Assembly: GCA_028554795.2 (NCBI GenBank)
Contig: CM068825.1
Span: forward strand, 159,445,553-159,509,552
Length of the DNA stretch: 64,000 bases
Direction of reading: 5' to 3'
DNA from: Sinohyriopsis cumingii
Taxonomy: Eukaryota; Mollusca; Bivalvia; Unionida; Unionidae
Of this stretch, positions 427-26,199 are shown one piece after another. Both the position numbers and the translations under genes were made by a program. Positions within the stretch are counted from its first letter, which is position 1. Each line of letters starts with the position of its first letter. The notes beneath the pieces were generated by a model, which saw only the letters and a list, made by a program, of their open reading frames with translations, did no database searches and was not told where the DNA came from.

Positions 427-1314
427 ATGGAGGTGTTTCCCCACAACACGTTGTGCTGTTACACGGCCAAATTACCTCAGGCCATCCCCTTAGATCACGA
501 AGCCCATTGGGAAGTGGCTTTAGTGGAAATCATTCACCCGACAAAAGTCCTCAATGTCCTTCCCAATCAAATTTTTTTTGATGTGGAAGTTCATGACGAG
601 CAAGTGCAAGAGTACTTGGATAAGAATGTCAGATATGACAAGAAAACCCCTGGCATAAAAAATCAAAAGTCGACTATCTATCACTTGTTCATTCCCCCAG
701 GCTATTATTTTAGTGGTCAACATTTGGTCAACACCATAGCCACCAGGTTTAATGGCGTGTTTCTGAAAGCTTTGGAGCATGTCAAAAAAAGTGTCACCCT
801 GGAATACCACAAAACAGCTCGTCGCTTCCTGATAAAATTTCCTGAGGGGGGTAAAATCATGTCTTTCTTATTTTGTCCTGAATTGTATGACATGTTGGGC
901 GGAGACATGAACATGAGAATGACCATAATCAACAAAAAGGAATTACCAATCGTTTACGACAACGAGTCTTTTAGCAAGTTATTTCGTACCCCAGTAGAAC
1001 TGAATCAAGGACTGAATTTGATGTTCGTGTATTCCGATGTGGTGGAGTACAACGTGGTGGGACACACCTCCGTGCCGTTACTGCGTGTCATTCCTTTCAA
1101 AGTGGATTCTGCCACGAACGCTGACGAGGAAGGTGGAAACACTTACCACGTTCACCGCGAATTTGTACATCCTCACTATTTGCCTGTCAGCAAGTCGTAT
1201 TTGGACACGGTCAACATTACTATAAAAGGAGATTTGGGACAAAATATTCCATTCACCAAAGGAAAAGTCACGGTGAAACTCCATTTTCGAAAACGGTTTT
1301 CTCACGACTCGTAA
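427..1314 (+). CDS. Polinton minor capsid (penton-like) protein
   Basis: Intact 295-residue frame starting at ATG in the context ttccATGG. The N-terminus (MEVFPHNTLCCYTAKLP, then HWEVALVEI.HP) matches the conserved start of the protein encoded beside the major capsid protein in animal Polintons, interpreted in the literature as the jelly-roll minor capsid (penton) protein occupying the capsid vertices. No signal peptide or membrane segment is visible and the predicted character is mostly beta. It is followed after only 3 bp by the core protein, and by capsid and protease genes, all on +, which supports a virion block. Assignment is by family pattern memory; a structural prediction showing a single jelly roll would confirm it. 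Confidence 0.65.
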   Translation: MEVFPHNTLCCYTAKLPQAIPLDHEAHWEVALVEIIHPTKVLNVLPNQIFFDVEVHDEQVQEYLDKNVRYDKKTPGIKNQKSTIYHLFIPPGYYFSGQHLVNTIATRFNGVFLKALEHVKKSVTLEYHKTARRFLIKFPEGGKIMSFLFCPELYDMLGGDMNMRMTIINKKELPIVYDNESFSKLFRTPVELNQGLNLMFVYSDVVEYNVVGHTSVPLLRVIPFKVDSATNADEEGGNTYHVHREFVHPHYLPVSKSYLDTVNITIKGDLGQNIPFTKGKVTVKLHFRKRFSHDS

Positions 1315-1317
1315 GTC

Positions 1318-1767
1318 ATGTATCCAGTGTACCGAGGGGTTGCTCGACAGCGAGGACACGGTTTAGGAGATATGTTAAAAACGGCCTTTCGTTCGGTGGC
1401 CCGGGTGTTGAAACCGATGGTGACACGCGGATTGCACGCCTTGAAAGATGCGGCACTGACAGAAGGCAAAGAATTTCTCCAAAATGTCGTCATCGACAAG
1501 CAAAACCCTAAAGAAACTTTCATGAGGGCAGGCAAAAATGTCTTGCTGCAAACGGGTAAAGACCTTTTGGGCCGACGAGACACATCTATAAATGCCCTGC
1601 ACGCTACCGAGTCAGGCATTCAGCAAGGACAAGGCAGAAAGAGACGACGAAGAAAACACCCTTTCACCAGACATGTGGTTGAAAGAAAAGTATTTGCTGA
1701 ACGGGGTGGATATCCGCTTGAGACTGAATCGCAGCAGTGCCGCTTTCCATTTGATGGCTGCTGCTGA
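1318..1767 (+). CDS. Polinton virion core (pX/pVI-like) protein, C-terminus replaced
   Basis: The first ~110 residues (MYPVYRGVARQRGHGLGDML..) are typical of the small basic virion core protein of Polintons: a 'YRG..RQ.GHGLGD' start, amphipathic helices, and a basic run KRRRRK near residue 105. The family is compared with adenovirus pX/pVI, basic proteins that condense DNA or interact with membranes. After the basic run the frame continues into sequence that in another frame encodes the middle of the major capsid protein, so the last ~40 residues are probably an out-of-frame artefact of a deletion at about 1640-1670. It starts 3 bp after the penton-like gene. Confidence 0.6.
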   Translation: MYPVYRGVARQRGHGLGDMLKTAFRSVARVLKPMVTRGLHALKDAALTEGKEFLQNVVIDKQNPKETFMRAGKNVLLQTGKDLLGRRDTSINALHATESGIQQGQGRKRRRRKHPFTRHVVERKVFAERGGYPLETESQQCRFPFDGCC

Positions 1768-2429
1768 TGCCACTTACAAAACCAAACTCGAAGAAGCCAG
1801 ACTCTACGTGCGTCGTGTGGAAGTGTTGCCTAAGTGGGAAACGACATCAGTCAGACGTTGAGCAGAGCGACCGCCAAGTATCCGATCCGACGAGTGGAAG
1901 TGAAAACGTTCACGATTCCCACTGGACAGCGATCCATGATCGAAGATCATCTGTTCCAAGGACAGTTACCCAAGCGTTTAATCCTTGGTATCGTCAAGAA
2001 TTCAGCCTTCAACGGAGCCTACCATGAAAACCCTTTTGAGTTTCAACATTACAATGTGTCCAAGATCGAAGTCAGTCACGACAGCAAGACCTTGTGTACC
2101 CGACCTTTTGAGCCTAGGTTCGGTGACAAGAATTATTTGAGATCGTACTTGTCCCTGTACGAAGCTACCGGACAGTTAGAACGAACACCAGTCACGGTAT
2201 TACGTACGAGGATTATGCAGGAGGCTACGCTTTGTGGGCTTTCGACTTCACTCCAGACCAAGGCAGCGACGAGGGACATTTCCACCCTACAAAATCCGGC
2301 CAGATTCGTGTGGAAATTCAGTTTGCGAGTGCACTACCCCCAGAGAACACAGTCAACGTCATCCTGTATGCGGAATTTGACAATACCATAGAAATCAACA
2401 GTTTGAGAGAAGTCATTCTAGATTACTAG
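1650..2429 (+). pseudogene. Polinton major capsid protein, 5'-deleted and frameshifted
   Basis: Three overlapping reading frames together resemble the C-terminal half of the animal Polinton major capsid protein (family of C. elegans F54H12.2, double jelly roll). Recognisable blocks are WLKEKYLLNGVDIRLRLNRS and YVRRVEVLP (frame entered near 1650), AKYPIRRVEVKTF and GQLPKRLILG (second frame, about 1850-2200), and TVNVILYAEFDNTIEI (third frame, ending at 2429). The breaks lie near 1830-1850 and 2190-2235. The family is usually 450 or more residues; about 255 are visible, and the N-terminal jelly roll is missing, lost together with the end of the core gene. It cannot encode a working capsid protein as it stands. 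Confidence 0.75.
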
Positions 2430-2959: not shown

Positions 2960-3520
2960 ATGGATACCTGGGAACTTTATTACCTTTTGAACCACAGTTC
3001 GTATACGGCTTCTTGGAATCCTGTCGTCTGTGCTAAAGATGAACTCCCTCATCGCAAACCTCAAGACCATCTAGCTTACGTGATCAACACGGACGACAGT
3101 CATCTCCCAGGAACCCACTGGGTAGCCGTTTACTTTCCTCAAGAAGGATGTGTGGAATATTTCGATTCATATGGATTGCCCCCTTTGGAAGACGATATCA
3201 TTGACTTTATGAGAAGAAATGCTCAGACCACCCGATTCAATAATGTGAAATTACAAGGCACAGATTCCTTGGTGTGTGGACAATATTGTGTGTATTTTCT
3301 GCATCATCGCAGCCTGGGCTATTCCTTAGAACATTTAGTGACTCATTTTGATCCTCGTTCTTCTTCTAGAAACGATGTGAAAGTAGATCGAAGGTTTTGT
3401 GACCATTATGCTTATCTTTTGTCTCAAGCTAGGAAACGTAGTGTCCATCAATGGCCTAATGACTTCCAACAGTGGAAATCACAATTTCATTCACAACGTT
3501 GTCAGCCCTGTTTAAAGTAG
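2960..3520 (+). CDS. Adenain-like cysteine protease (Polinton PRO)
   Basis: Intact 186-residue frame with the complete order of adenovirus-type (C48/C5-like) protease residues: His in GTHWVAVYF (about residue 54), Asp in EYFDSYGLPP, Gln in LQGTDSL and nucleophile Cys in VCGQYCVYFL. Such proteases mature virion proteins in adenoviruses and are a hallmark gene of Polintons. The length is close to the family norm. It is the last gene of the + strand virion block, 22 bp after the preceding gene and about 110 bp before an AATAAA. Nothing in it is broken, unlike the capsid gene. Confidence 0.88.
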   Translation: MDTWELYYLLNHSSYTASWNPVVCAKDELPHRKPQDHLAYVINTDDSHLPGTHWVAVYFPQEGCVEYFDSYGLPPLEDDIIDFMRRNAQTTRFNNVKLQGTDSLVCGQYCVYFLHHRSLGYSLEHLVTHFDPRSSSRNDVKVDRRFCDHYAYLLSQARKRSVHQWPNDFQQWKSQFHSQRCQPCLK

Positions 3521-3631
3521 ACTGTAAATTGAAAAAAATGTTTGTCATTTGAAGAAAAAATGTTTGATGTTATAATGTAGGATTATTGTTAAAATATGTT
3601 AGAGTTGTTGGTTAGTGTTAAGTGATTTTTG

Positions 3632-3637
3632 AATAAA
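3632..3637 (+). terminator. AATAAA polyadenylation signal after the protease
   Basis: AATAAA lies about 110 bp after the protease stop in an AT-rich untranslated stretch, as expected for the 3' end of the capsid/protease transcript. No comparable hexamer follows the next three small genes, which instead carry histone-type stem-loops. Confidence 0.5.
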
Positions 3638-3762
3638 AAATGTTGTGTTTTGAAAAAATGCCATTGTCGTTTGTTTGGCTATAAGAATGTTGATTCATGC
3701 TCTTTGACTTCTTACTATCCCTCTCATGTCACTCATTGAACGTTCCGGCTCGAAAACCGTGT

Positions 3763-3804
3763 GGGGGATGTTTTCCTTCACGTCCGCGCTTTGACTTTAA
3801 GAAC
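3763..3804 (+). promoter_or_regulatory. Shared promoter block, copy A
   Basis: The core GATGTTTTCCTTCACGTCCG continues GCGCTTTGACTTTAAGAAC. The first ~30 bases recur almost unchanged before the other two small genes (4643 and 5485), each time followed by an AT-rich TATA-like motif and, some 50-65 bp later, the start codon. Recurrence at three starts is what supports a promoter reading. Confidence 0.6.
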
Positions 3805-3855
3805 CGGGGGAGTTTCCAGTCTAACCATCCATTGTCGACTCATCCTCCTACGAAG

Positions 3856-4221
3856 ATGTGCTCCAAACTAGCTAAGCTAAACGAAGCCTACGTGAATTTG
3901 CATAGGGTCAGACACAGTCTGATACCGAAAGCTGAAGAGATAGAGAATGTGAGAATGTTAAAAGTCACTGAAGACCTGATAGAAGAGCTCTTCAGAGAAG
4001 AAGTGAACAGGGAGAAAGAAGAATGGACAGAAAAGTACAGACTTCAGAGACAGCAGCAACAGCAACAACAACAGCAGCAGCAGCAGCATCAGGAACCTGA
4101 ACCTGACAGAGGCTTTGTCGATTGTCGTATCGACACCAAAGAGTTCTTCTTCTCTTTCCGAAGAAGCAGACCTATCGTCAGAAAGTCTATCCTCAGAGGA
4201 CGACGCATTCTTAGAAACTAA
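3856..4221 (+). CDS. Small helical protein A with polyQ and histone-type 3' end
   Basis: I chose the ATG at 3856 (MCSKLAKLNEAYVNLHRV..) because it lies at the same distance from the shared promoter block as the starts of genes B and C; the frame is open upstream to 3697. The 121 residues comprise an N-terminal ~60-residue helical, heptad-like region, a charged stretch, a polyglutamine run of about 15 (CAG/CAA mixture, near 4050-4090), and an Arg/Ser-rich tail. I do not recognise a family. Genes A, B and C share an N-terminal pattern of leucine-spaced helix then charged tail, and look like divergent duplicates. A histone-type stem-loop begins 27 bases after the stop. Confidence 0.6.
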   Translation: MCSKLAKLNEAYVNLHRVRHSLIPKAEEIENVRMLKVTEDLIEELFREEVNREKEEWTEKYRLQRQQQQQQQQQQQQHQEPEPDRGFVDCRIDTKEFFFSFRRSRPIVRKSILRGRRILRN

Positions 4222-4247
4222 AAGATTGCCATAGCAAACAAAAAAAC

Positions 4248-4285
4248 AGCCCTTTTCAGGGCTACCCAATACTCTAGAAAAGAAA
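4248..4285 (+). terminator. Histone-type 3' stem-loop and downstream element, gene A
   Basis: The stem is AGCCCT (4248-4253), the loop TTTC, the returning stem AGGGCT (4258-4263), and ACCCA follows immediately (4264-4268). A purine-rich GAAAAGAAA lies at 4277-4285, 14 bases past the stem. This reproduces the metazoan replication-dependent histone mRNA end: stem-loop bound by SLBP, cleavage after ACCCA, and a histone downstream element pairing with U7 snRNA. Confidence 0.85.
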
Positions 4286-4642
4286 TAACCATCGATTTGC
4301 CAATGTGTGTAGGTAAAGTAGTGTGAATATAAACACTGACTCTTTTTATAGTGTGAATGTATGTGTTTGTGTATAAGATTGTGTGTTTGTAAGTGCTCAC
4401 GTACGTTGGTGTGGATAGTAGATTAAGATCATGTCTTTTTTTTTGCTGTTAGAGGTGTGGGGAGAGTAGATTTGGGGGTTTGATTGGATTGCTTTGCGTA
4501 TGTGAACAGTATATTGAAGTGATTAATGAAAATAATTTTTTTAGAATAGGAATGGGTAGTATAAAAAAAGTGAGTGAGTGTTTCTTTTAGGTCCGCGCGT
4601 TGTTTTGGTCATCATCTAGGTAAGATCAATTTTATGTTTTTA
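4286..4642 (+). repeat. Spacer between genes A and B, partly duplicated after B
   Basis: The sequence just after stem-loop A (ataaccatcgatttgccaat, then a GTGTGAATATAAACACTGAC block) is repeated nearly unchanged after stem-loop B (5096-5160). A second unit, GCTCACGTACGT followed by TGTGTGGATAGTAGATT, occurs near 4395, 5195 and 5283. A third, CCGCGCGTTGTTTTGGTCAT followed by a CATCTAGG block, occurs near 4593 and again near 5440. The spacer therefore records repeated segmental duplication of the gene cassette. No gene is seen in it. Confidence 0.6.
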
Positions 4643-4684
4643 GGGGGATGTTTTCCTTCACGTCCGCGCTTTCACTATAAATTG
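4643..4684 (+). promoter_or_regulatory. Shared promoter block, copy B
   Basis: GGGGGATGTTTTCCTTCACG followed by TCCGCGCTTTC and then CTATAAATT, a good TATA box, about 55 bases before the ATG of gene B. The first 31 bases match copy A except for one position. Confidence 0.65.
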
Positions 4685-4735
4685 AAACTCGTTCGGCAGT
4701 CTAGTTACCCTTGTTGATTGATCAACACCACCAGA

Positions 4736-5026
4736 ATGAACACCAGAATTGTGAAACTGCTAGAACTCCAGATGCACCTGGAATATGCCAGGCGCCTGTT
4801 GAACGAACTGGCCGCGGAGGCTATTGTCGAAGAGGGAAGGATGAGAGAGGAGGAAAGAAGAAAAGAAGAGGAGGAAAAAGAGAGAAAAGATTTCAGAATC
4901 CCAGAGACAAAAAATTGGGATTCTGAAGCCACATATCCCGCCTCTGCTCTCCCAAGAAGAAAGGTGAAAGGAGACTGGGGAAGAAGATGTGTGTGTGGTG
5001 CCAGGCCAGGAAGGTGCCAGCATTAG
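4736..5026 (+). CDS. Small helical protein B with histone-type 3' end
   Basis: Start ATG at 4736 (MNTRIVKLLELQMHLEYARR..), placed after promoter copy B like its neighbours; 96 residues. The N-terminal ~45 residues form a leucine-rich amphipathic helix (LLELQMHLEYARRLLNELA), followed by an Arg/Glu/Lys-rich segment (EEERRKEEEEKERK) suited to a coiled coil and a basic tail with two Cys. The N-terminal pattern resembles genes A and C, so the three are probably paralogues that diverged strongly. I do not recognise a function. A histone-type stem-loop begins 32 bases after the stop. Confidence 0.55.
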   Translation: MNTRIVKLLELQMHLEYARRLLNELAAEAIVEEGRMREEERRKEEEEKERKDFRIPETKNWDSEATYPASALPRRKVKGDWGRRCVCGARPGRCQH

Positions 5027-5057
5027 ATAGGTGCATCTGGAATTAAAAAAAACCAAC

Positions 5058-5095
5058 AGCCCTTTTCAGGGCTACCCAATACTCTAGAAAAGAAA
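5058..5095 (+). terminator. Histone-type 3' stem-loop and downstream element, gene B
   Basis: Identical in its core to copy A: AGCCCT (5058-5063), TTTC, AGGGCT (5068-5073), ACCCA (5074-5078), then GAAAAGAAA at 5087-5095. Upstream bases AACCAAC approach the CCAAA-type flank of canonical histone mRNAs. Confidence 0.85.
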
Positions 5096-5418
5096 TAACC
5101 ATCGATTTGCCAATGTGTGTATGTAGAGTAGTGTGAATATAAACACTGACTCTTTTTTGTGTGAGGGTATGTGTTTGTGTGTTTGTGTTTGTAAGCGCTC
5201 ACGTACGTTTGTGTGAATAGTAGATTATGGGTTTGTTTATTGTTTCTTAGCGTATGTGGAGAGTATAGTTTGGGTTTTGTAACCGCTCACGTACGATTGT
5301 GTGGATAGTAGATTATGGATTTTGTTTTAATGATTTGCGTGTGTAAATAGTAGATTTGGGGTTTGTTAAATGTTGCTTCACTTATGTGGATAGTATATTA
5401 TATGACATGAGAAAAGTA

Positions 5419-5526
5419 GGAGGATGTTTTCCTTCACGTACGCGCGTTGTTTGGTCATGATCTAGGTAATATCAATTTTATGTCGGGGATGTTTTCCATC
5501 ACGTCCGCGCTTTTCGTATAAGAACC
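5419..5526 (+). promoter_or_regulatory. Doubled promoter block, copy C
   Basis: An incomplete copy (GGAGGATGTTTTCCTTCACG, then TACGCGCG, 5419-5447) precedes a full copy at 5485-5526 that ends in GTATAAGAAC, a TATA-like motif about 37-45 bases before the ATG of gene C. The first copy is embedded in the 66-bp unit also seen near 4590. Confidence 0.55.
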
Positions 5527-5562
5527 CACAGTATTCGTCGTTCAAACCATTCTACAGAGAAG

Positions 5563-5931
5563 ATGGCTTCAAACCACCTGGATAAAATGCAAACATTACA
5601 AGACGTCCTGGACAATTTGGGCATGATGGAACAAATGCTAGTGAGACTAAATGAAGACCACTATTCTTATAGTCCCCATCGAGTAAAGATGGAGATTAAT
5701 AACTTAAGAAAAGTAAAGGACATGATAAGTGGTGTGATGAAAGAAATAAAGGAGGAGAAGGAGGATGAAGAGGAAAGGATAAGGATAAGAGAATGGAATG
5801 AAAAAATTGAAAAAGAAGAAGAAAATGAGAAGAGGAAGAAAGAAGAGGAGGAGGAGAAGAAAGAAGAGGAGGAGAAAAAAAAGAAAGAAAAGAAGAGAAA
5901 GAGTGTAGGAGAGAAAATAAGAAGTTGGTAG
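5563..5931 (+). CDS. Small helical protein C with acidic/basic coiled-coil tail
   Basis: The ATG at 5563 (MASNHLDKMQTLQDVLDNLG..) gives 122 residues. The first ~65 residues carry two helices (MQTLQDVLDNLGMMEQML and RVKMEINNLRKVKDMISGVM), followed by ~55 residues almost entirely Glu/Lys/Arg, a long charged helix or coiled coil. Organisation matches genes A and B: helical N-terminus, low-complexity charged C-terminus, shared promoter and histone-type 3' end 37 bases after the stop. No family is recognised. The purine-rich coding strand produces spurious long frames on the opposite strand. Confidence 0.6.
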   Translation: MASNHLDKMQTLQDVLDNLGMMEQMLVRLNEDHYSYSPHRVKMEINNLRKVKDMISGVMKEIKEEKEDEEERIRIREWNEKIEKEEENEKRKKEEEEEKKEEEEKKKKEKKRKSVGEKIRSW

Positions 5932-5962
5932 AGAAATAGAAAAAATTAAAAGAAGAAGAAAA

Positions 5963-6006
5963 CCAAAGGCCCTTTCCAGGGCCACCCACATTTCTCGAAA
6001 AGAGAA
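5963..6006 (+). terminator. Histone-type 3' stem-loop and downstream element, gene C
   Basis: This is the most canonical of the three: CCAAA flank (5963-5967), stem GGCCCT (5968-5973), loop TTCC, AGGGCC (5978-5983), ACCCA (5984-5988), then GAAAAGAGAA at 5997-6006. Its stem base pairs differ from copies A and B while pairing is kept, which is compensatory change. Confidence 0.88.
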
Positions 6007-6061
6007 TGACTTTCGATTGCCTACCCCTTTTTTTAAAAATTTTTTTTTATTTAAAAAAAAA

Positions 6062-6355
6062 TCCCATGTTCAATTTCCCTTGACGCTATACAGTCCCACC
6101 ATGTTTAAATTCCTTTGGCGCTATACAGTCCCCTATTCCCATGTTCAATTCCCCTTGACCTTCAACAGTCCCACGGTTTTTTCTCCATGTTAATTTCCCT
6201 TGTCGCTAAACAGTCCCACGATTTTTCTCCATGTTAATTTCCCTTGTCGCTATATGTTCCCACGATTTTTCTCCATGTTAAATTTCCATTGTCGCTATAT
6301 GTTCCCGGGGGGGGGGGGTCTGTAATGCTAATTCCCATTGTCGCTATAGTATCCC
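6062..6355. repeat. Tandem repeat at the presumed right end of the first element
   Basis: About seven imperfect copies of a 35-45 bp unit of the form CCATGTT.AATTTCCCTTG followed by .CGCTATACAGTCCCAC, ending in a G10 run near 6306-6316. It follows gene C directly and could be part of the element's terminal repeat, but no matching left end is inside the window. Confidence 0.5.
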
Positions 6356-7725: not shown

Positions 7726-7920
7726 GTATCATCTTAAGACAGCGTTTTGTTAATCTTTGGCATGAGCTCATTGCTACATTGCCCTTCAAACACCCAGCAT
7801 ACTCCTCCTAACTGGCATTCGCAGCCAAATCTCCGAGTAGAGAGAACTATTTAATTGCGCGTTGAAATGAGAAAATTGTTGATTAGCCAATATAATTGGA
7901 AGGTCACTACGTAATGACTC

Positions 7921-8166
7921 GGGGGGCCCAGAGTGGCCGAGTGGTCTAAAGCGCTCTCGGTTACGGATCACTGCCATCTCACCTCTGCGTGGATTCGAGT
8001 CCAGGATTCGGCCAATGTGGGTATGTGGGAAAGCTTGCCAGTAGCTTCTCGTAGGTCGGTGGTTCTTCCCGGGGTTTTCCCGGGTTCTTCCTCCACCATT
8101 AATACTGGCCGAGATGAATTGCCTATCATGTGCTGAAATATGGCGTTAAACCCCACAACAACAACA
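7921..8166 (+). mobile_element. tRNA-derived SINE, copy 1
   Basis: The 5' tRNA-like head shows a polymerase III A box (TGGCCGAGTGGTCTAAAG) and B box (GGATTCGAGTCC). The body contains a conserved CTTCCTCCACCATTAATACT domain, then GGCGTTAAACCC and a (CAA)n tail. A perfect 12-bp target duplication ACGTAATGACTC flanks it (7909-7920 and 8167-8178). Four more copies lie in this window. Confidence 0.9.
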
Positions 8167-8178
8167 ACGTAATGACTC

Positions 8179-9122: not shown

Positions 9123-9634
9123 AGCAGCAGAGAGGGTGAACAGACCACTTGATCCGTCACGTACGTTTTTCAGACAAAAAAAAAAATAGTGACCTTTCAT
9201 AGAGGTAACTACCGTTACCGCATCATTGTTTGACCCAAACAAACAAGGGATGCGGTCGTCACCCTCTCTGCTGCTATTGTTCAGAGTAATCCTGGGAATC
9301 TTTGAATCTCAAATAATACTCTATCTCTGTTGGTGGTTTTTCTATTTTTGGATTTTTTTTTTTTCTATTTTTATAATATATCATTAAACTTCTATATCGA
9401 TCTCCACCGCAATTTGCACAAATCTGATATAATCCTCTAACGCCGTTGTTACATCCAACACAATGTCGTGAACCAGCATGAGGATTTTTTGATAAAATAT
9501 AATTATGTCTCCTGCAGTATTCTCCATGGCACCTTTTATCACATTTATCTGTTGTTCCTTGAATCAGCCACGCACACTTGTGCATTATATTAATGATATC
9601 TGTTTAATTAAATTTACATCCTCTCTGCTGCTAT
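9123..9634 (+). repeat. Left terminal inverted repeat
   Basis: 512 bp matching 25686-26194 in reverse with a small number of substitutions and A-run length differences. The end motif AGCAGCAGAGAGG appears at 9123, in reverse at 9263-9275 and in reverse again at 9620-9632. The outer 153 bp (9123-9275) is thus itself bounded by 17-bp inverted repeats, and the remainder contains a gene. Confidence 0.9.
9274..9585 (-). CDS. TIR-borne zinc-finger-like protein, left copy
   Basis: Intact 103-residue frame from ATG at 9585 (context aatataATG). Cysteines and histidines are arranged MHKCAWL..GTTDKCDKRCHG EYCRRH, then RHCVGCNNGVRGLY and ICANCGGDRY, so at least two Cys/His clusters capable of binding zinc. 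The C-terminus is charged. The stop overlaps the inner end motif of the TIR. I do not recognise the family outside such elements; location in both TIRs suggests a DNA-end function or dosage, which is inference. A second copy is at 25735-26046 and a diverged one at 15115-15336. Confidence 0.75.
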   Translation of the reverse strand: MHKCAWLIQGTTDKCDKRCHGEYCRRHNYILSKNPHAGSRHCVGCNNGVRGLYQICANCGGDRYRSLMIYYKNRKKKNPKIEKPPTEIEYYLRFKDSQDYSEQ

Positions 9635-10293
9635 TCATCCAAATATTTTATCAAGACCTACACGATATCTTGTTCTAGGATCGTGCAAATTTATTGTTAT
9701 AAATCCATGCGGAGTAGCTTGCGCTCGTGAAAAGAAGTTTTTAAATTTAATTATATCCATGTCACCGCTGCACCAGGTTTGATGAATATTTCTCATCGTG
9801 TGTGTATCAACTCCATTAAACACAACTAAAATATTACAATTATCTCTGATCACTTTTGGTATTTGTGTGTATCGTTGAGTAACGTAAATGACATCAGTGT
9901 TTTTATGTCTACCTCGAGAAAATATTCTAGCTGGGTTTGTTTGTTTATCCAGCCTCACATCGTCGTATACAATCAAATTATTAATAAATCCTCTATGGAA
10001 TCTACTGATGGTGCTTCATCAATATCAGTTATAAACTTGATAACATCGTCATCCAGTAATCGCGCGTTTTCATTAAAATCCTTGAGCACATCATAACATC
10101 GTTGATCATCAACTGACGGGGTTTCCAAATACAATTTATCCCACTTTAACCATCTTATTATAAGATTAAGTAACAACTGTGTCTTTCCACTTCCAGATGG
10201 TCCTATTATTATCATTCTGATTGAATTCAGTAACGCAGGATGGTGTTTGACAGGTTCTCGTTTTCTTCTCGCTGAGAAATCAATTATATCCAT
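9635..10293 (-). pseudogene. FtsK/HerA-type DNA-packaging ATPase, frameshifted
   Basis: The start is ATG at 10293. The first frame (to 9973) has a Walker A motif, MIIIGPSGSGKTQLLLNLII; the second frame (9976 to 9635) has a hydrophobic-acidic Walker B block, VYDDVRLD, followed by sensor-like VIYVTQRYTQIP. Together these are the order and spacing of the A32-like genome-packaging ATPases that load DNA into preformed capsids. The break is a one-base shift near 9970-9985, in an AT-rich stretch. Size (~220 residues) is normal for the family. It is divergent to the PLA2-like gene with only 16 bp between start codons. Confidence 0.82.
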
Positions 10294-10309
10294 GCTATAT
10301 AAAATATCT
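10294..10309. promoter_or_regulatory. 16-bp divergent start region with TATA-like core
   Basis: The whole interval between the two divergent ATGs is GCTATATAAAATATCT. If both starts are right, promoter and leaders must be extremely short or must overlap the opposite gene. Similar AT-only sequence ending in ATAATG precedes most starts in this element. Confidence 0.4.
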
Positions 10310-10875
10310 ATGGATTTATATTGTGTAAAGTGCAGGACGCGTACCCCCGACGGATACACTAACAACTATTACCACAAAAAATAATAAATCAGCAGTTACT
10401 GGTAAGTGTACGCGGTGTGGTACAAAGAAATTCAAATTTATCTCCACTGACAAGTCAGTGCAGTCAGGTGAAAAACCAAAACCAAGGTCAAGTAAAAAAA
10501 AAAAAAAAAAAGCAACGCGGAGGTGATATTGCAGCAAAATTAACAAAGTTACCGGGAACTCCGTGGGCTAAATACCCAGGAGAAAAACATCTACCAATTA
10601 ATTATTGCGGTCCTGGTACTCGACTCGATATCAGGCTTGATAATCAGGATCAACCAAAACCAGGCGAGGAACCAATAAACGCTACTGATAAAGCATGTCA
10701 TGCTCATGATGTTGCGTATAAAAGCAATGATCTACAATATAGGCATATTGCAGATGTGAAATTAATTCATGCGCTGAATTCTATAAAAAATAAAAATATC
10801 AAAGAAAAATTAGCTAATTGGTTAGTAAGATCTACGATGAAAGGTAAATTAGCACTTGGGGCTGGTAATATATAA
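10310..10875 (+). pseudogene. Zinc-ribbon plus phospholipase A2-like (VP1u-type) protein, frameshifted
   Basis: Three frames in order. From ATG 10310 the first encodes MDLYCVKC, half of a zinc ribbon; the second encodes GKCTRCGTKKF, the other CxxC half; the third (to 10875) contains YCGPGTRLD, the Ca-binding loop, and ATDKACHAHDVAY, with the catalytic His-Asp of secreted-type PLA2 as in parvovirus VP1u. Polintons are known to carry such a protein; in parvoviruses the enzyme opens the endosomal membrane during entry. The breaks are at an A6 run near 10376-10381 and at the A18 run near 10495-10512. The family has no separate signal peptide here. It ends 2 bp before the integrase. Confidence 0.75.
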
Positions 10876-10877
10876 AA

Positions 10878-11832
10878 ATGGAATCGATTTATTATTCTCC
10901 AAGAGGATACTGGAAAGGTAAAGCAGCAATTAGTAAACTTGCTGATGCAGCAGCGGTTAAACATTCTACTGCTAAAGCGTGGTTATCCAAGCAGGGAATA
11001 TGGCAAATTTACCTACCACCACCTAAGCAAATTCGATTTGCACATTTCGATGTTAGTGTTCCTAATGAAGTTCATCAAGCTGATATTCTGTTTTTACCAC
11101 ATGATACTGTACGTAGAAAAACGTACAAATACGCGCTAACCGTTGTTGATTTTGCAAGTAGATATAAAGATGCAGAACCGCTATCAACGAAAACAGCATC
11201 TGAAGTATCCGATGCTTTTAAACGAATTTATCAACGAGGACCATTACGATGGCCACAGCTGCTACAGGCTGATCCTGGCAAGGAATTTCTTGGTCCAGTA
11301 TCATCGCTGATGAAACAACATAATATCAAACTACGACGAGGACATACTGCAATTCATCGTGATCAGGCAATTGTTGAACGATTTAATCGAACACTCGCTG
11401 AGCGGTTATTTGGATATCAATACGCGAAGGAATTTTTTCAGGATACGAGATCTCGTGAATGGGTTGCAAGATTACCAAGTGTGATAGCAGCGTTAAATAA
11501 CGAGATCACTCGAACAACCAACATGAAACCTATTAATGCAATTACCAAAACAAATATACCTACACAACGACGTGATCTTTCAGCACAGCCAGTATTAGGT
11601 AATATCACTGTTAGGTATTTATACGAGCCCGGTGAACTTGAAGGTGGTAAAAAAAAGAGCGACTGATCCTATTTGGAGTGTTACCACACATAAGATATCC
11701 ACCGTAACAAGATCCTCAGGTAGACCCGCAATCTACAGGCTGGATTCAACTGCTCCTCAACGTGGATTTGTACGTGAACAATTACAAGTAATTCCCGAGG
11801 ATACACAATTACCACCGCGATCACTTAACTAG
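10878..11832 (+). pseudogene. Retroviral-type DDE integrase, frameshifted near the C-terminus
   Basis: The first 262 residues (10878-11666) contain the integrase core: first Asp in EVHQADILFLP, second Asp in LLQADPGKEF, and Glu in QAIVERFNRTLAER about 35 residues later, the DD35E arrangement. An N-terminal helical region precedes it. The C-terminal chromo/SH3-like part (ATDPIWSV.. to GFVREQLQVIPEDTQLPP) is in another frame ending at 11832; the switch is at an A8 run near 11650-11657. Integrase inserts the linear element and creates the target duplication. It is convergent with the polymerase gene, whose stop lies at 11825, so the two 3' ends overlap by a few bases. Confidence 0.85.
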
Positions 11833-14800
11833 CTCCGTTACGTCGGTTACACTCAAGACAGGTCAACATGATATTTTCTCGTGTATGACCGCGACTGTTA
11901 TCTTTTCTGTCTACGGTAAATTGTCTTGGATCATTTTTTAGATACTGCCATAACATTATACAATTACAACTTGCACAATGAATATTCTGTTGTTGTTTCA
12001 ATGTGCTGATACATTCAACGTCGAGATCAAATTCTCGATTATTTTTTTATCAGATTGTTTATAACCAGCTAATTTTTTTCTTATTATATCGTTGTCACCT
12101 CGACATTTATCGAGGTCATCATTAGTCACTGACGAGTTCATGACGATTAGTCTCAGCTGAGATATTTTTCTAACTCGAGACACTGCAAGATAAACTAAGT
12201 TTGACCATTCGATCGACGATCCAAACAACTGTATCAGTAACAGTTAATCCCTGAGATGAATGAATCGTCATTGCGTATCCAAGCGTCCACGAGGATTTAT
12301 CAGCACGTAGAGCATCTTCAACAGTGTTGATATCAACTGTGATAATATCATTCAGCACAAGATTCTGTTTCCCCTGTCCTGGTATATCAACGTCAATATT
12401 TTGCCGTCGCGTATCTGCTGGTCGATAACATAACGGAACTGGCAATGTTGGATATTTTTCTTTATGCAACTGAAACAACTCTCGTTGAAGTGTATCACGA
12501 ACTATCTTTCTACTTGCAGCTATTAAATCGGTTGGTCGCCACGTCTGCAGAAAGTCGTTCATGGGTGTTTCTGAAATTATTCCACGCATTACTTCACACT
12601 GAATTTTATTCGGTTGTAGTCTGATTAATTTTTTAAACTGTTTCAACGTTGCATCAAGTGCTCTATGATCATCATTTATTTCTTCGTAATAATCGACAAA
12701 GTTTTTTAGCCATTCATGTGGAGATGGTCTAACAAACGGTGGTGGTTGACCATGATCGCCGCACATTATCACAGCAGTATTTCTTTTTAATAACCAATCT
12801 AGAAATATTTTTAATGTTTCTAACGGCACCGTGCATATTTCATGCCAAATGATGATCCTTGGAATGTATTTCTCGCCCATCCTTAAAGATGTCCATGTAT
12901 CACCCTTCCATCGGAAGAAGCTGTGATAAGTATATGATTGTACTCCTCGTTGTTTCATTTCTCGAGCGAGTCTGTGTGTAGGTGTCAGCACGATCATATC
13001 TGAGTTCTGAAATAGTTCGATCGCTCGAGTGGTTTTACCAGAACTACCCGGTCCGTTTATGTATATCGTTTTATATCTAGCTATTGGATCATATACCGAT
13101 GGTAACAACGAAGTTGTCGATGATATATCTGATCGCTGGTTTTTATAATAATCATCTTTGATCGTAACATCTGCTGATCTTGTATAATCAAGTATATTTT
13201 CTTTCTTTATTCTCCATGAACCCCACGGTGCATCATCGTCCGTAAAATTATCCAACAACGTTGCATATTTCTTATCGATATAGAACGAATCCGTTGCAAC
13301 CCTAACTGCGGTATCAGGAAATTTATTTATCATAGATAGCAAGTTTATGCTCACGTAGGCCAACATCGATGATCTTAACTGCGTATACTGAGGCGATTCT
13401 CCATCCATATAGCTTACAATCGTACCTAATCGTGTTTCATTTTGATAAATAAACGTCTTCGCGGTTTATAAATATATTTCTCGCTGCTGCATCAGCAACT
13501 ATAAAATCGTATTCGGTATCATCCAGTATTAATCGTGCATGACGTTGTTTATGATCATATGCTCCACCTTGAGTAAACTTTCCTATTATTTTTCTTCCAA
13601 GATCCTTTGCTGTTTTATCGCTATTATTTAGTTTAATCTCGAGGATTCTAGGCACTTCTTTGACAATATCATCGGGTGAAGCGTCAGGACATTTTTCTTT
13701 AAATTCCTTAATGACCTCATCGAGACTGATATTTTCCCTCGGTGGTAACCAAACCTCGGATTGTTTCTTATATGATATAATTGCCTCACTAACCACCAAC
13801 GATACCAATATCGCACAATCGAGCATATATCGTAATAAAACTATTGGTGCCCAGCGTTTTTCTGAGAAATGTCTACCAAACCAAACATAACATATCGTAT
13901 GAAGATCCATAGCAAACTCGAATGATTCAACACAAGCAAATCCAGTTAGATCAAAATCCGGCAATGGTCCATTTATCGATACTCGCGTCATTTCATGTGA
14001 TGGATGACCGAACCTTGCAAAATAATTAGAACAATCTCCGTATCCGAGAAAACTTCCTGGATAACACACAACCGTATCAACAGATATCATATCGTTGTAA
14101 TTATATTTGGTGTTCCACAATCCGCCGTGGCCATACTCAACACAACTTGATTGTACATCCGAAAGAAATTCATTTCGGGTTGGTTTCCACGAGTTTTTTT
14201 ATCTAGCAACATGAGCTGCAACAGATGGAACAGTAAAACAGTTGCTGAGCAACTCATCAATGTTTTCTGAATATCTTTGAGCAAGATTTTTCATTTCTTC
14301 ATGAAGGGATTCTTTACGATATATTTCACCTTTAGGTCGCACAAATTGATCATATTTTTCATCATCTGAGCTCTTAAATAACCACACTGACAAAGGATCA
14401 TTTTTACTTATTTTGTTAATAAAATCAGACATGTTATCATCATAAAATTTAACAGTTCGATTTCGTGGAAATATTGTTACTGGGCTAGTCCATGCATGCG
14501 AGTTATGATCAATGATATTTATTGGAGTTCCTTTTGATTTATACTTTGATTCATACAAAATCTCTCCTGTTATCGTCGCTACGGTTATTGGGTGTTTTAA
14601 TCTTTTTCCTAACTCAGTGACATCTTTGATAGACGCCCCGGTATCTTTAACTGCTTCGCCCCAATCGTTTATTATTTTACGTCTTTTATCTGTTAAACCG
14701 TTTCCACGGGCCGCGTTTGTAAAATGTTATATTACTCGTTCAGCTACACAGTTTATTTTTGAAAATTTTATTGGCGCCAGTTTATCAACGCTAGGTTTTT

Positions 14801-15069
14801 CATTTATCACATAGATTCCATAAATAACTGCTGTTACAGGATACACCTTTGGCGTTGACTTTGTCATCACGAATAATCTTGAACGTTGACCAGACATGAG
14901 ATGCACCATCTGCGTGAAATTCTTTCTTGGCGTCGTGAATTTTATTGATCAAACCTTTATTTTTCCGATCGACCAGATCTCGTATTGACACGTCAGGAGA
15001 TATCCTGTCGAGGTTGAATTTACTTGTTTTCCAAGGCTTTATTCGGGATAATCTCTCAAACTCATCCAT
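11825..15069 (-). pseudogene. Type-B DNA polymerase continuous with SF1 helicase and HNH-like zinc motif
   Basis: Start ATG 15069 (MDEFERLSRIKPW). The polymerase part runs to about 13250, with the palm motif VRVATDSFYI near its end. An SF1 (Pif1/RecD-like) helicase follows in the same frame: Walker A GPGSSGKTTRA, VLTPTHRLAREM, WHEICTVP, CGDHGQPPP, then TIHSSQGLTVTDTVV. The C-terminus has CASCNCIMLW and GHTRENIMLTCLECNRRNG, a Cys4/His HNH-like module. Frame breaks occur near 14850, 13435, 12225 and at a T7 run near 12040, with in-frame TAA at 14727-14729 and 14199-14201. About 1,080 codons in total. The helicase frame itself (13408-12170) begins inside the polymerase palm, so the fusion is directly visible. 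Replication of the element is the expected role. Confidence 0.8.
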
Positions 15070-15114
15070 ATTATATTTCAGACAGGTATTTAAATAAAAA
15101 TTATTATATATACA

Positions 15115-15336
15115 ATGTCTCAATGCAAATGGTTAATGATCGGATCATTAACTCGTTGTAATAAATCCTGCAGGAAGGAATTCTGCGGACAACACATGCA
15201 AAACGTTCACCGTGGAAGCTTAGGACTAATACCATGTCTGCGGTGTGGTGCTGGAGTACGAGGAAAAACATAGTTGTGTGCGTGTTGTGGTGGTAACGAT
15301 ACAGAGAGCTTAAAAGCTGTTATGACAAAAAAATAA
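15115..15336 (+). pseudogene. Internal relative of the TIR zinc-finger gene, with in-frame TAG
   Basis: A frame of 73 sense codons plus terminal TAA, interrupted by TAG at 15271-15273. It shares the spacing CKWL..GS..RC.KSCRKEFC.QH, then CLRCGAGVRG and CACCGGND, with the TIR-borne proteins (CAWL..GT..KC.KRCHGEYC.RH, CVGCNNGVRG, CANCGGD). At the stop position the TIR copies have Gln (VRGLYQIC). The C-terminal charged tail is shorter. It starts 45 bp from the divergent polymerase start, in the context tatatacaATG. Confidence 0.7.
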
Positions 15337-15437
15337 CGACCCTGACAGAGTCAATAACAACGCTACAAAATCCGTGGAGGATTATCTAACTAAGTTTTCA
15401 GACAAATTATGATTTAAACAAATGATATTATTGTATA

Positions 15438-15947
15438 ATGGAGAAAAATATGAACCACGAGTTTATAAAGCATCCTACAATAACAAACTACGAATCGAAT
15501 ATTAATGGTATGATCAGAAATTGTCAGAAAAAAGTACCAATTGGTTTTGTTACTAATACTGGTTATCTATTGTTTACTGCTGGGAAGAAAAATTATCTCT
15601 GTCATCGTTTCATATACGAGTGTCTCAAGGGGTTGATCAAAGATGGTCTAGTGATCGATCATATTGACGGGAATCCTCAAAATAATAGTTTATCCAATCT
15701 TCAAACTGTTACACAGAGCGAGAACTCTGCACTGGGAGGGACTGGTAAATATGACAGAACAATTGTAAGGAGGGCGGTAAAATCCACAAACATAGAAACT
15801 GGCGAAGAAATCATATTTCAATCAATGAACGCGGCTGCGAAATACTTTGATATTAACTCGCGTGTGGTAAAATACGTCGCAGAAAATATAACCAAATCCA
15901 CTCTTTCCAAGAAATATAAACATAAAATCATGTTCCAATATTGTTAA
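15438..15947 (+). CDS. HNH homing-type endonuclease
   Basis: Intact 169-residue frame from ATG 15438 (context gtataATGG). Residues ~45-90 carry LCHRFIYECLKG, then VIDHIDGNPQNNSLSNLQTV, the HNH_3-type signature with the DH..GN..NN.L.NL core; the C-terminus (SMNAAAKYFDI..RVVKYVAENI) resembles the NUMOD1/helix-turn-helix DNA-binding module often linked to it. Such enzymes make site-specific breaks and are usually selfish genes in phages and large DNA viruses. Here it is free-standing in the interior of the Polinton, and it is one of the few long undamaged frames of the element. An internal ATG (MNHEF) is an alternative start. Confidence 0.85.
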   Translation: MEKNMNHEFIKHPTITNYESNINGMIRNCQKKVPIGFVTNTGYLLFTAGKKNYLCHRFIYECLKGLIKDGLVIDHIDGNPQNNSLSNLQTVTQSENSALGGTGKYDRTIVRRAVKSTNIETGEEIIFQSMNAAAKYFDINSRVVKYVAENITKSTLSKKYKHKIMFQYC

Positions 15948-16620
15948 TGAGATAAACTATCATCACTATCAAGTAATTACCTCGAATTATGTTTATTAAC
16001 CATTTTTTAACCATTTATCCTTTTTTGTCAGAAAATCTTATTTTTATAATACTTATTTTTTGACTCATGTGAAAGGGAGATTACTTCTGTATGTATATAT
16101 TTATCCGTAGATTTCTGAGTTTTATGGTCGTAATTGGTCAATTATATATCTACGTCGTAATTAATTACTCGTAGAGGATATTTATGGTTTTTAGCTCAGA
16201 AAATAAATATATAAACGTATTTCCCATCATACAATGTAGCGAGCTATTTTTAGATCTGTTACGAGAAATCGAGACAGAACACGTAGTTTATATACTTACA
16301 ATCTGTTTAGAAACCGCTATTATAATGCATAAATATTTGAACCGATCTGTATAAAAATGTTTGATAATGCAGCGGTAGCATGTATATAGACAGAACACGC
16401 TGTTTATATATTTACAATCTGTTACGAGAAATCTTGCCAGAACACGCTGTTTATATATTTACAATCTATTCAGAAACCTCTGTTTTAATGCAGATATATT
16501 CAGAAACCGCTGTTTTAATGTAGAAATATTTACAATCTATTCAGAAACCACTGTTTTAATGCAGATATATGTATAACTTACAATCTATTCAGAAACTGTA
16601 GCTATATAATAATTTCTGGA
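15948..16620. repeat. AT-rich stretch with interspersed 40-bp repeats, no gene
   Basis: From 16230 the unit ACAATCTATTCAGAAACC.C followed by TGTTTTAATGCAGATATAT, and the related ACAGAACACGCTGTTTATAT, recur five or more times at irregular spacing. No frame of coding character is present. Confidence 0.55.
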
Positions 16621-16636
16621 ACGTATATTGTTAGAT

Positions 16637-16708
16637 GATTCGATAGCTCAGTTGATAACGTATCGGACCGTAATACTTGAGGTCTGGCGATCGAATCCCC
16701 ATGGCTGA
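16637..16708 (+). other. tRNA-like sequence
   Basis: TAGCTCAGTTGATAACG resembles an A box and GATCGAATCCC a B box at tRNA spacing. The acceptor arms do not pair and the T stem has a mismatch, so it is a degenerate tRNA or SINE head rather than a functional tRNA gene. Confidence 0.35.
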
Positions 16709-16744
16709 CAACTGGTCGGTGGTTACGCATATTTGCGATTTTTA

Positions 16745-17530
16745 TAATTAATTGGGGCCCCGCCAGCCCCTCTGCGCTCAACAGAACCCCTCCAACCACA
16801 CGTCACTGGTGGTTGATACATGTTTTGTATCACCCACGGGCTGATTATGGGGGTGTGTTCTGTTGAGCGTAAAAAATGGCCTCATATATGTTTGTGCCGT
16901 CATTCATTTATTGTATATACTCATTCATTGTATGTTTGTGCTGTCATTCATTCATTGTATATACTCATTCATTGTATGTTTGTGCCGTAATTCATTCATT
17001 GTATATACTCATTCATTGTATATATTTCATGTCATTCATTGTATGTTTGTTTAGTCCTTAATTAAGATTATATGTTGTGTGTATCCTCTAAACTTGCTAG
17101 AATACGGTGGTAAGCTAGAAGTTATGGAGATTGGTGTAAATATGTAAATACTACGTGTTGTGTTCCGTGTATCCTCTAAACTTAGTAGAATGCGGTGGCA
17201 AGCTACGAGTTTAATGGGGATTATATGTTGTGCTGTCTTCACCAAACGCACCCTCTTGGGCCTCTAGACCGTTGTTTGACGGGTTAGGGGCTCTCATAGG
17301 GGGTAGTGTTTCGTGTGCCCGTGAACTTGGTAGAATGCGGTGGCAAGCTACGAGTTCTGGGCTGTAAATATGTAAATACTATATTTTGTGCTGTGCCTGT
17401 TGAACTTGGTAGAATTCGGTGGCAAGCTACGAGTTCTGGGTTGTACTGTCCTTGTATGTTGTGCTGTGCCCCTTCCTGAACCTGCTAAAAGACTCGAATA
17501 GAGGTTCATAGGGGATATATTTTTTCTTTT
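16745..17530. repeat. Hairpin plus two repeat arrays, no gene
   Basis: A hairpin has arms 16775-16793 and 16849-16869 (CGCTCAACAGAAC and its complement) enclosing a smaller stem around GATACATGTTTTGTATC. Three 44-bp tandem copies (GTTTGTGCCGTCATTCATTC..) follow at 16890-17022, with a shortened fourth to 17052. From 17060 to 17460 a unit AACTTGGTAGAATGCGGTGG then CAAGCTACGAGTT recurs four times. Base composition is richer in GC than the flanking Polinton DNA. Confidence 0.6.
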
Positions 17531-17550
17531 AAATATATATATACTAAATA

Positions 17551-17964
17551 ATGAACTATGAAAATATCAATGATGTAATTGTTGCTATTAAAAAATTAAA
17601 AAAAGACAGTATTAATATATCTGATGAACTGAATCCTGAAAAGATTATTTCTGATTTTGAAATCTTACAAGAACGTAAAAATGATGGTGGTTTTACACTG
17701 TCGTCTGAATACAAGTTTATAAAACGAATTCAGGCAGCGATGATCCGGTCACTATCTGCAGTAAAAGATGATCAGGTCAAGGAATTCATTCCTCTCTCTG
17801 CCACAGTAGAAAAAATTAGATCGGAGTTATCCCACGAATACGAGGCAAAAAAACCCGTTAGTACTCGTATAAGACAATTTAAAAAAATTATGTTAGCGAG
17901 TAACTTCGTTACTGGTGAAGCGATCCAAAGTAACTTCGTTGGTGAAACGACCGAACAAGTGTAA
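17551..17964 (+). CDS. Hypothetical 137-residue protein
   Basis: Intact frame from ATG 17551 in the AT-only context typical of this element (actaaataATG). The product is hydrophilic and mostly helical (MNYENINDVIVAIKKLKK.., IRQFKKIMLASNF), with no membrane segment, Cys motif or recognised domain. The C-terminus contains a short internal repeat, SNFVTGEAIQ / SNFVGETTEQ. It stands alone between two noncoding repeat regions and is the last + gene before the minus-strand virion block. Being undamaged amid decayed genes is its only notable property. Confidence 0.5.
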   Translation: MNYENINDVIVAIKKLKKDSINISDELNPEKIISDFEILQERKNDGGFTLSSEYKFIKRIQAAMIRSLSAVKDDQVKEFIPLSATVEKIRSELSHEYEAKKPVSTRIRQFKKIMLASNFVTGEAIQSNFVGETTEQV

Positions 17965-18780
17965 TATTTTTATTTGTTCTGAAATATTTTTATTTATTCT
18001 GAAACATTTTTATTTATTCTGAAATATTTTATTTCTTGCAAAAACTGATCGATTTTGTTAATTTTGAGTACCCATTTACTAGTCAAAATTAACAAACTGA
18101 TTGATTTGCACGATTTTGAGTACTAAACTACCATACCAATTTAAGATATTTCTGATAAAACAAAATATTTCTGATAAAATAAAAAAATATTTCAGAATAA
18201 TAATAAAATATTTCTGACAAAATAAAAAAATATTTCAGAATAATAATAAAATATTTTTTGTAGTATTTTTTGCAAAACTGATCGATTTGCATGATTTTGA
18301 GTACCTAAATACCCATCAGAATTAACAAGCTGATCAATTTGCATGATTTTGAGTACACATTTACTAGTCAAAATTAACAAACTGATTGATTTGTATGATT
18401 TTGAGTACCAATCACCATATCAATTTAAGATATTTCTGATAAAATAAAAAAATATTTCAGAATAATAATAAAATATTTCTGCTAAAAAATAATAATAAAA
18501 TATTTCAGATCATAATAACTATTTCAGATTACTTGCAAAACTGATTGATATGCATGATTTTGAGTACCTAAATACCCATCAAAATTAACAAACTGATCGA
18601 TTTGCATGATTTTGAGTACCAGTCATCATATCAATTTTTGAATAAATACAATATTTCTGATAAAATAAAATATTTCTGAATAAATACAATATTTCTGATA
18701 AAATAAATATTTCAGAATAAATATAATATTTCTGAAAAATCTACGATAAAGATCTACGATCAGAAATCTATGTTTTCACA
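17965..18780. repeat. AT-rich repeat block between convergent gene groups
   Basis: Two motifs alternate: AAACTGATCGATTTGCATGA followed by TTTTGAGTAC (about seven copies between 18040 and 18620), and clusters of AATATTTCTGATAAAAT or its near complement AATATTTCAGAATAAT. The second motif makes the region rich in potential foldbacks. No frame is coding. Position between convergent gene blocks would suit a terminator region or replication/segregation element; this is inference. Confidence 0.65.
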
Positions 18781-18956
18781 TATAGATTGACAATCAATTC
18801 CTCCCCACGCAGGTCAATTAATCGTCCTATGTGGTCTGTTAGTTTGAAATTTGTTTGTCACAAATACTGATTATGTGTACGTAGTTAAACAGGATTGGTT
18901 GGTACTTGCACGATCAAATCCCCAGGGCGAACTTGTAGTGTGAACGTGTATAAAAT

Positions 18957-20203
18957 TTATCCTTGTTGAGTCTGACTTGATCTTCGGAGATCTATTTGAT
19001 AGCTACCATCGATCACATCACAAACTAGATTAACCGCGACCGTTGAAGTTATATTAACGATTCCCGGAGATACGGGTCTACCGCCGCCGTGTGGATCATT
19101 ATTATATCTAAGAACAGTTGCTGGTGGTGCTATTTTTTCTCCATGCATCAAGTATTTTAGGAAAGTTTTTCGCGACAAGATTATTGAGTGATCTTATCAA
19201 TTCGCCGGTTTCAAATCCTCGTAGTGTAAAATTTAATAAATCTGCTTCAGTTATTTTATAATGATCAATATATGCTTGCTTGATACTATTTTTTTTCTCC
19301 TGTAACTATATAATTATTAGCATTCATTACTTCAGTAATAGTCTGATTAAAATATTTAAGTTCTAAAACAATTTGATTTAAATGTTGTATCGTTGCAATG
19401 ATCTGATGCTTTATATTGATACTGGGATACTCCAGGATATAGTTTTTAAATAAACGTGCTAATGTCGTTAATGTAGTTGTGTATTCAGTTTTAATTTCGT
19501 TAGCCTTTGATCTGAAATCTCTTTCATAAACAATATTAGTTGAAGGTTTTATATCAATATCAATGATAGAAAACGGTACCTTAGGATATAATTTACCATC
19601 ATGAATAATACGAGTATTCCGAGTATCCCTACCAGTCCATGGATAAAAATTTCGGTATTCTGGAGTTGTTATAAACTTGGCTTCGTCCGTGAGAAATTCA
19701 ATTAATTTTGGTTCTGGTGGTCCTTCATGCCCTTGCGGAATTTCAGGCCAACCTAGTACGGATTTTATCGTGGACTGATAAATATCAACGACATAATCAG
19801 GAGAGTTTATTTCGATTGTAGAAGATTACGTCGGTTCATGAACGTTAATCGATATTTTTGATTCCTTTCCTGTTATTGATTTTATTCTACGTTAAAATTC
19901 CTCATTGATCTCTTCAATCTCATAACTGCCAGTTGGTATTCCAACAACGACCCAGTCAGGTGTTCCATCGGGTCTGTTTTTATTAGCAAATACAAGCGAA
20001 TTATTTGTTTGTGTACCATTAAATGATTTCGATCTGATATTTGGCCAACTATGGTATACTCGTAATTGCGCTAGTGCAATTTCATTCGCGTGAATTGCAG
20101 TTGGAAAATTGATGCTAAATTCAGGATTAATCGAGCTTACCGAGATCGTCGTAGTCTTGTGCGGGGTTGTGTTTGTCACGATCTGCTGGAGTAATTCCGT
20201 CAT
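18957..20203 (-). pseudogene. Polinton minor capsid (penton-like) protein, nonsense and frameshifts
   Basis: Start ATG 20203 (MTELLQQIVTNTT). The N-terminal block NFPTAIHANEIALAQLRVYH and then VVVGIPTGSYEIEEI is the pattern I associate with the penton-like protein of this Polinton lineage. The frame meets TAA at 19892-19894 and again at 19826-19828, continues through about 19295, changes frame at an A8 run, and changes again near 19150 before ending at 18957 (TSTVAVNLVCDVIDGSYQID). The start overlaps the end of the two-TM gene by 77 bp, an overlap that may be real or due to another indel. Total about 415 codons. Confidence 0.6.
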
Positions 20204-20666: not shown

Positions 20667-20767
20667 TATATTTTATGCAGTAACCAAATGAGGTGTTTCA
20701 GCTACAAATTCCAAGCATCACCAGTAAGATGTTGCGGTTAATTTCCTATCAGCTGCTTCCAGAATAA

Positions 20768-21694: not shown

Positions 21695-21707
21695 TATATT
21701 TTAAGAT

Positions 21708-22581: not shown

Positions 22582-22616
22582 TTTATGATAAATACTTGCC
22601 ACGCTCCAAATAATGA

Positions 22617-23994: not shown

Positions 23995-24026
23995 TTTATT
24001 ATAATTATTTCCGTTTAACACGTTGA

Positions 24027-24485: not shown

Positions 24486-24513
24486 CTTATTTTATTTACC
24501 ATTTATCTAACAA

Positions 24514-25659: not shown

Positions 25660-25685
25660 TATTTTAATAACATAATGATTTAATT

Positions 25686-26194: not shown

Positions 26195-26199
26195 CTCGT

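Follow-up and report, generated by a model that had tools for sequence, protein, structure and literature searches.

Histone-like promoter and 3′-end signals on accessory genes of an adintovirus/Polinton-type element in Sinohyriopsis cumingii

Two papers on animal mRNA 3′ ends (PMC6303110, PMC5011920) describe stem-loop 3′ ends as being used by histone genes only. Here we analysed a 64,000-nucleotide stretch of the Sinohyriopsis cumingii genome (contig CM068825.1, positions 159,445,553 to 159,509,552; hereafter the window), which carries a virus-like element with three small genes that we call A, B and C. These genes resemble the replication-dependent histone genes of animals in their 6-bp stem, 4-base loop and purine tract, their short 3′ untranslated region (UTR) and their intron-less frame, and they share one promoter block with the H2B gene of the host. 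They differ from histone genes in that their proteins are not histones and in that they sit in a mobile virus-like element.

The element has in common with Polintons (Mavericks) and adintoviruses a PolB, an rve integrase, an A32-like ATPase, a penton-like protein, a candidate adenain-type protease and probable terminal repeats, and differs from them in the histone-type promoter blocks and 3′ ends borne by its accessory genes. Adomaviruses, which are likewise animal DNA viruses, have ‘Histoid’ genes encoding histone-like proteins, and one of them, from a clam data set, has adintovirus-like capsid genes, according to PMC11071296; there it is the protein that is histone-like, whereas here it is the control signals only. 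Genes of this kind offer a possible route for histone control DNA into such viruses, and the term ‘stem-loop’ is absent from the part of that paper that is accessible. A preliminary description of the window had named no precedent for a Polinton with histone-type 3′ ends, and among the titles and abstract openings that our literature searches listed, in a collection with few subscription papers, we likewise found no virus or Polinton described as using histone stem-loops.

Histone-type 3′ ends in the window

The preliminary description had claimed that three genes end in a histone-type stem-loop followed by a purine tract, and had proposed a covariance search with the Rfam model of the histone stem-loop (RF00032, Histone3). 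This search recovered all three hairpins. The matches cover the full model (positions 1–46) at 4243–4288, 5053–5098 and 5963–6008 on the + strand, with E values of 6.4e-5, 3.3e-5 and 2.8e-5 for A, B and C in a comparison with 4227 Rfam families (scores in Table 1); no further RF00032 match was found in the window up to E 1. Each hairpin has a perfect 6-bp stem and a 4-base loop with ACCCA directly after it, and is separated from the stop by 26 (A), 31 (B) or 36 (C) bases. GAAAAGA begins 13 bases past each of the three stems. The claim is borne out. All three genes are single open frames without introns and have short 3′ UTRs.

Such perfect hairpins with an ACCCA tail occur three times within 3501–6100, compared with 0.0015 expected from 2000 dinucleotide shuffles. 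Searching with a loose pattern, RGCYCTTTYYARRGCYACCCA, we obtained a single IMG/VR match, which lies inside a gene carried by a phage-like contig, on the opposite strand, and has no Rfam match there; a tighter pattern, GGCYCTTTTCAGRGCCACCCA, gave 0 matches in a prokaryotic genome collection of 257 Gb. As previously noticed, the stems of A and B differ from that of C by a paired change, pair 1 being A–U in A and B and G–C in C, a two-sided change. The stem-loops of A and B are not independent, because the 147-base stretch around them (from 4236 and 5046) is 87% identical, a recent duplicate. Covariation was considered as proof of structure and rejected, the changes being too few. Past the purine tract we also observed a conserved stretch of approximately TTTCRATTTGCC, at 4289–4302, 5099–5112 and 6009–6020 of the window as well as at loci L057, L059 and L061, in several gene families.

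The nine environmental homologues of gene A are 67–81% identical to it. Used as queries, B and the front part of C retrieved nine proteins, eight of which share the C-terminal end of B and one of which matches C (Table 1). No Pfam family exceeded its cut-off for A, B or C, and no histone family matched them. The fold predicted for A consists of two helices and a beta hairpin; a histone fold was considered for it and rejected, as this weak model (predicted template-modelling score (pTM) 0.34) had no match in PDB at E 0.001. A and B are thus conserved genes that code for proteins other than histones; for C there is one relative or more.

Copies, gene families and terminal repeats

The 2.9-Gb genome contains 150 or more near-identical copies of gene A. 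We read 30 loci picked by gene A alone, the window’s own among them; they were the best matches and are recent copies. Allowing up to 3 mismatches, a hairpin followed gene A in 29 of the 30 loci, with all six pairs (G–U allowed) in 24, and a second hairpin further downstream was present in 27, with six pairs in 26. AATAAA or ATTAAA lay within 140 bases of the gene A stop at 1 of the 28 loci whose gene start was found by script.

A genome-wide RF00032 search, in which 75 of 589,472 candidates were scored, placed 75 of 75 over the cut-off; the weaker matches of the window are not among these 75 best. All 41 of the 75 that we read lie at genes of this element, an assignment made by short motifs at loci that had been picked for the hairpin. 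Including A, B and C, six non-histone families end in a stem-loop and purine tract, the others being D (183–192 amino acids where open), E (76–78) and G (182–204), none of which matches a Pfam histone family. Absence of the structure at orthologous genes of related copies, which according to the preliminary description would refute its reading, was not observed: the structure is found in 29 of the 30 A copies and in three further families. A comparison of one member per family (A, C, D, E and G) gave mean pairwise identities of 0.94 for stem-loop and tail and 0.77 for the purine tract, versus 0.31–0.40 upstream and 0.34 beyond +70. Of 84 distinct element contexts assigned to a family, 64 have the tail ACCCA.

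For the protease gene of the element we tabulated 30 rows that represent 29 places, L027 and the window being one. AATAAA or ATTAAA lies within 300 bases at 26 of these distinct places (AATAAA at 25), and none of the 29 has a perfect hairpin after the gene.

Gene E faces outward at one end, in L061, where the order is E, D, PolB; C or G does so at the opposite end, in L057, L059, L060 and L062. Between copies, homology of the E and C/G 3′ ends starts exactly 9 bases before the stem in 12 of 12 pairs. Four alignments of the L061 E end extend outward over 283–364 columns; L058 shares 44 bases only. Because these ends are homologous from 9 bases before the stem, the stem-loop of the outermost genes is probably, on the evidence of the alignments, the inner edge of a terminal repeat in the copies compared. 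D, A and B have their stem-loops away from the terminal repeat. Tandem repeats of about 35–45 bases (families D9, D10 and D14) occur in the terminal repeat region, at 6064–6355 of the window. A fragment of another copy, in opposite orientation, lies to the left of the window’s element (L026:5987–7310) and contains gene D, followed by a stem-loop at 7290 with an A among its loop bases.

The host histone genes and the origin of the signals

A Pfam histone search of the host genome, in which 150 of 662 candidates were scored, found many of them about 8.27–8.29 kb apart on shared contigs. Our comparison uses one cluster unit (C14:13099650–13105000). Its H3, H4, H2B and H2A genes each have a GGCCCT–AGGGCC stem-loop 27–35 bases past the stop, followed by a GAAAAG tract, and these stem-loops score 35.9–39.4 bits with RF00032; H4 has AATAAA within 160 bases. 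The sequence CTCTAGAAAAGA is common to host H2B and genes A and B, and of the 30 distinct contexts of C, D, E and G, 24 have the same 16-base stem-loop as H2B. The host histone genes and the element have closely similar 3′ ends.

Upstream, host H2B holds a 24-base block that starts 107 bases before the start codon and recurs before A, B and C (Table 1). With one position allowed to be A or T, the window contains three blocks without mismatch and one with two, none being expected from 100 shuffles; the best of 20 shuffles compared with the block had 8 mismatches. Among the host genes read, only H2B and, weakly, H2A carry it, the latter as a reverse copy with 4 mismatches before the gene. One or other of the two versions of the block, with at most 1 mismatch, is present somewhere in 30 of 30 gene A loci, and, judged codon by codon, the block would also fit the translated 5′ extension of the environmental protein P0029. 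By their sequences, the promoter block and the 3′ end appear to have been taken from a histone gene, probably H2B.

Because promoter block and 3′ end occur together, histone-type expression is the best explanation of these genes. We put at roughly 80% the probability that a multi-copy adintovirus/Polinton-type element took over the signals of a replication-dependent histone gene, likeliest H2B, for small accessory genes. In the simplest account, an ancestor of the element would have picked up the control signals of a gene like H2B and put them to use on genes of its own; the signals would have been duplicated along with the genes, and the 3′ end built into the terminal repeats. The promoter block would confer histone-like (S-phase) transcription, host SLBP would bind the stem-loop, and the U7 small nuclear ribonucleoprotein with CPSF73 would cleave shortly past the stem. 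The resulting mRNAs would have no poly(A), would be translated during DNA copying and would be destroyed once copying ends. The element would make two classes of message: polyadenylated ones from the protease gene and, probably, the capsid genes, and histone-type ones from the accessory genes at both ends. The products of these accessory genes would appear in time with DNA synthesis, when replication factors can be used.

We also favour, with noticeably less confidence, the broader proposal that the virus reads the DNA-replication state of its host through the H2B block and the histone 3′ end on its accessory genes, with the stem-loop in its terminal repeats, so that these proteins would be made only during DNA synthesis and without poly(A). 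Their mRNAs would then be the first non-histone protein-coding messages of animals to be made through SLBP and U7, and the viral genome would combine genes with poly(A) and genes with histone-type 3′ ends. An element that uses a histone promoter block together with the histone 3′ end on genes of other kinds would break the histone-only rule. It would offer a natural experiment on the sequence parts that are enough for S-phase coupling, and would represent a way for a DNA virus to couple its gene expression to replication in the host; viral messages of this sort would be under-counted when RNA is selected by poly(A) before sequencing.

Several observations weigh against the takeover of histone signals. 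The three RF00032 scores in the window are 2–3 bits below the gathering score of 34, and covariation is slight, with one pair changed on both sides and 2 of 66 cells unpaired. Host tails read ACACA, ACAAA or ATACA, whereas those of the element are mostly ACCCA. The earlier statement that AATAAA is missing near the stems holds for that hexamer, which we did not see near A, B or C, but not for the variant ATTAAA, which lies upstream of stem B (5042; stem at 5058) and stem C (5945; stem at 5968). The purine tracts pair with the 5′ end of human U7 no better than shuffles do (fractions 0.13–0.20), and a search for the host U7 gave one sub-threshold match (29.3 bits, E 0.27). An SLBP search of the host genome was without a match, although its controls were silent too and introns may interrupt the SLBP domain, and the promoter block was not found at D and E with the narrower pattern used there. 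In 6 of the 30 gene A copies the stem is broken or none was found. The hairpin in 29 of 30 A loci is presence in the family, not selection, since conservation among recent copies chosen as best matches is not proof of selection.

The ATTAAA before stems B and C and the broken stems of some copies would suit a cassette that was captured and copied with the element and whose stem-loops are now unused, polyadenylation taking place at ATTAAA or at signals downstream. We consider such a cassette improbable: AATAAA or ATTAAA is found after gene A at the single locus given above, the stem-loop, its spacing and the purine tract have been kept over six families while their surroundings have not, and promoter block and 3′ end derive from one kind of gene. 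The position of the stem-loop at the inner edge of the terminal repeat would fit a hairpin that works at the DNA level, in replication, packaging or integration, with its histone likeness secondary. However, A, B and D carry the hairpin outside the terminal repeat, always right after the stop and on the coding strand, and neither the purine tract with its fixed spacing nor the promoter block of the H2B type would be explained by a DNA-level role; we give it very little credence.

Slightly less credible again is transfer in the opposite direction or from a common third source, with block and stem-loop having entered the host histone cluster out of the element or some other repeat. The very many copies of the element speak for this, but such stem-loops after core histone genes are general in animals, according to PMC5011920, and all four host core genes read have one; the block is confined among them to H2B and, weakly, H2A. 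A chance likeness of palindromes in repeat-rich sequence we regard as scarcely believable. A relaxed RF00032 search does list weak matches in 14 control prokaryote genomes, none of them over the cut-off; chance is nevertheless rejected by the pattern counts in IMG/VR and prokaryotes, by the hairpin and promoter-block shuffles, and by the RF00032 matches and the presence of the block in the host.

Gene content of the element and neighbouring sequence

The Polinton-type identity given in the preliminary description agrees with what copies of the element encode: a PolB of the protein-primed type (PF03175, 57.7 bits; L025:1547–2524), a retroviral-type integrase (rve; PF00665, 54.8 bits; L025:8846–9910) and an A32-like packaging ATPase (PF04665, 29.4 bits, cut-off 22.8; L025:5975–6703). 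On this gene content, the element that hosts the stem-loop genes is of the adintovirus/Polinton type. Its protease scores 14.9 bits with PF00770, below the cut-off of 21.3, and matches the S273R protease in PDB at E 1.2e-4. Relatives of the penton-like protein were not found in IMG/VR, and PDB sequence searches with it, single or profile, gave no match. The broken frames downstream of it are probably pieces of a double jelly-roll major capsid gene; neither these pieces nor the open frame of another copy (L059:86–1285) has a Pfam match. Two IMG/VR matches to a capsid piece lie on phage-like contigs and were set aside as chance.

Table 1. Features of the element in the window (positions counted from its first letter)
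Feature	Position	Strand	Remarks
Penton-like protein	427..1314	+	27 homologues, fold comparison
Probable major capsid pieces, broken overlapping frames	1592..2429	+	no Pfam match
Element protease, adenain-type candidate, no stem-loop	2960..3520	+	AATAAA at 3632
H2B-type promoter block before A	3767..3790	+	23/24 vs host H2B block
Gene A, 121 amino acids, non-histone, intron-less	3856..4221	+	9 environmental homologues, at least 150 genome copies
Histone-type stem-loop after gene A, ACCCA tail	4248..4268	+	RF00032 31.0 bits
Purine tract after A, similar to the histone downstream element (HDE-like)	4277..4285	+	begins 13 bases past stem
H2B-type promoter block before B	4647..4670	+	23/24 vs host H2B block
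Gene B, 96 amino acids	4736..5026	+	8 environmental homologues P0038-P0045
Histone-type stem-loop after gene B, ACCCA tail	5058..5078	+	RF00032 31.7 bits
Purine tract after B	5087..5095	+	spacing as after A
Degenerate second block copy before C	5423..5446	+	2 mismatches
H2B-type promoter block before C	5488..5511	+	24/24 vs host H2B block
Gene C, 122 amino acids	5563..5931	+	homologue P0037, labelled Sinanodonta woodiana
Probable terminal repeat	5959..6300, outer edge approximate	+	inner edge 9 bases before stem of C; between-copy homology
Histone-type stem-loop after gene C, ACCCA tail	5968..5988	+	RF00032 31.9 bits
Purine tract after C	5997..6005	+	spacing as after A

Elsewhere in the window, 9123–26203 holds a second Polinton-like element, with inverted terminal arms of about 500 bases, a helicase-like protein, a double jelly-roll capsid piece and an rve integrase match slightly under the cut-off; no RF00032 match lies inside it. 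The sequence at 7920–8170 is presumably a tRNA-derived, short interspersed element (SINE)-like sequence. A long near-perfect hairpin at 54067–54162 has a weak MIR447 score and is probably a palindromic repeat. Among the IMG/VR sequences retrieved, two phage-like contigs (L002, L003; 7410–9609, + strand) each contain five hammerhead ribozymes of type II that exceed the gathering score.

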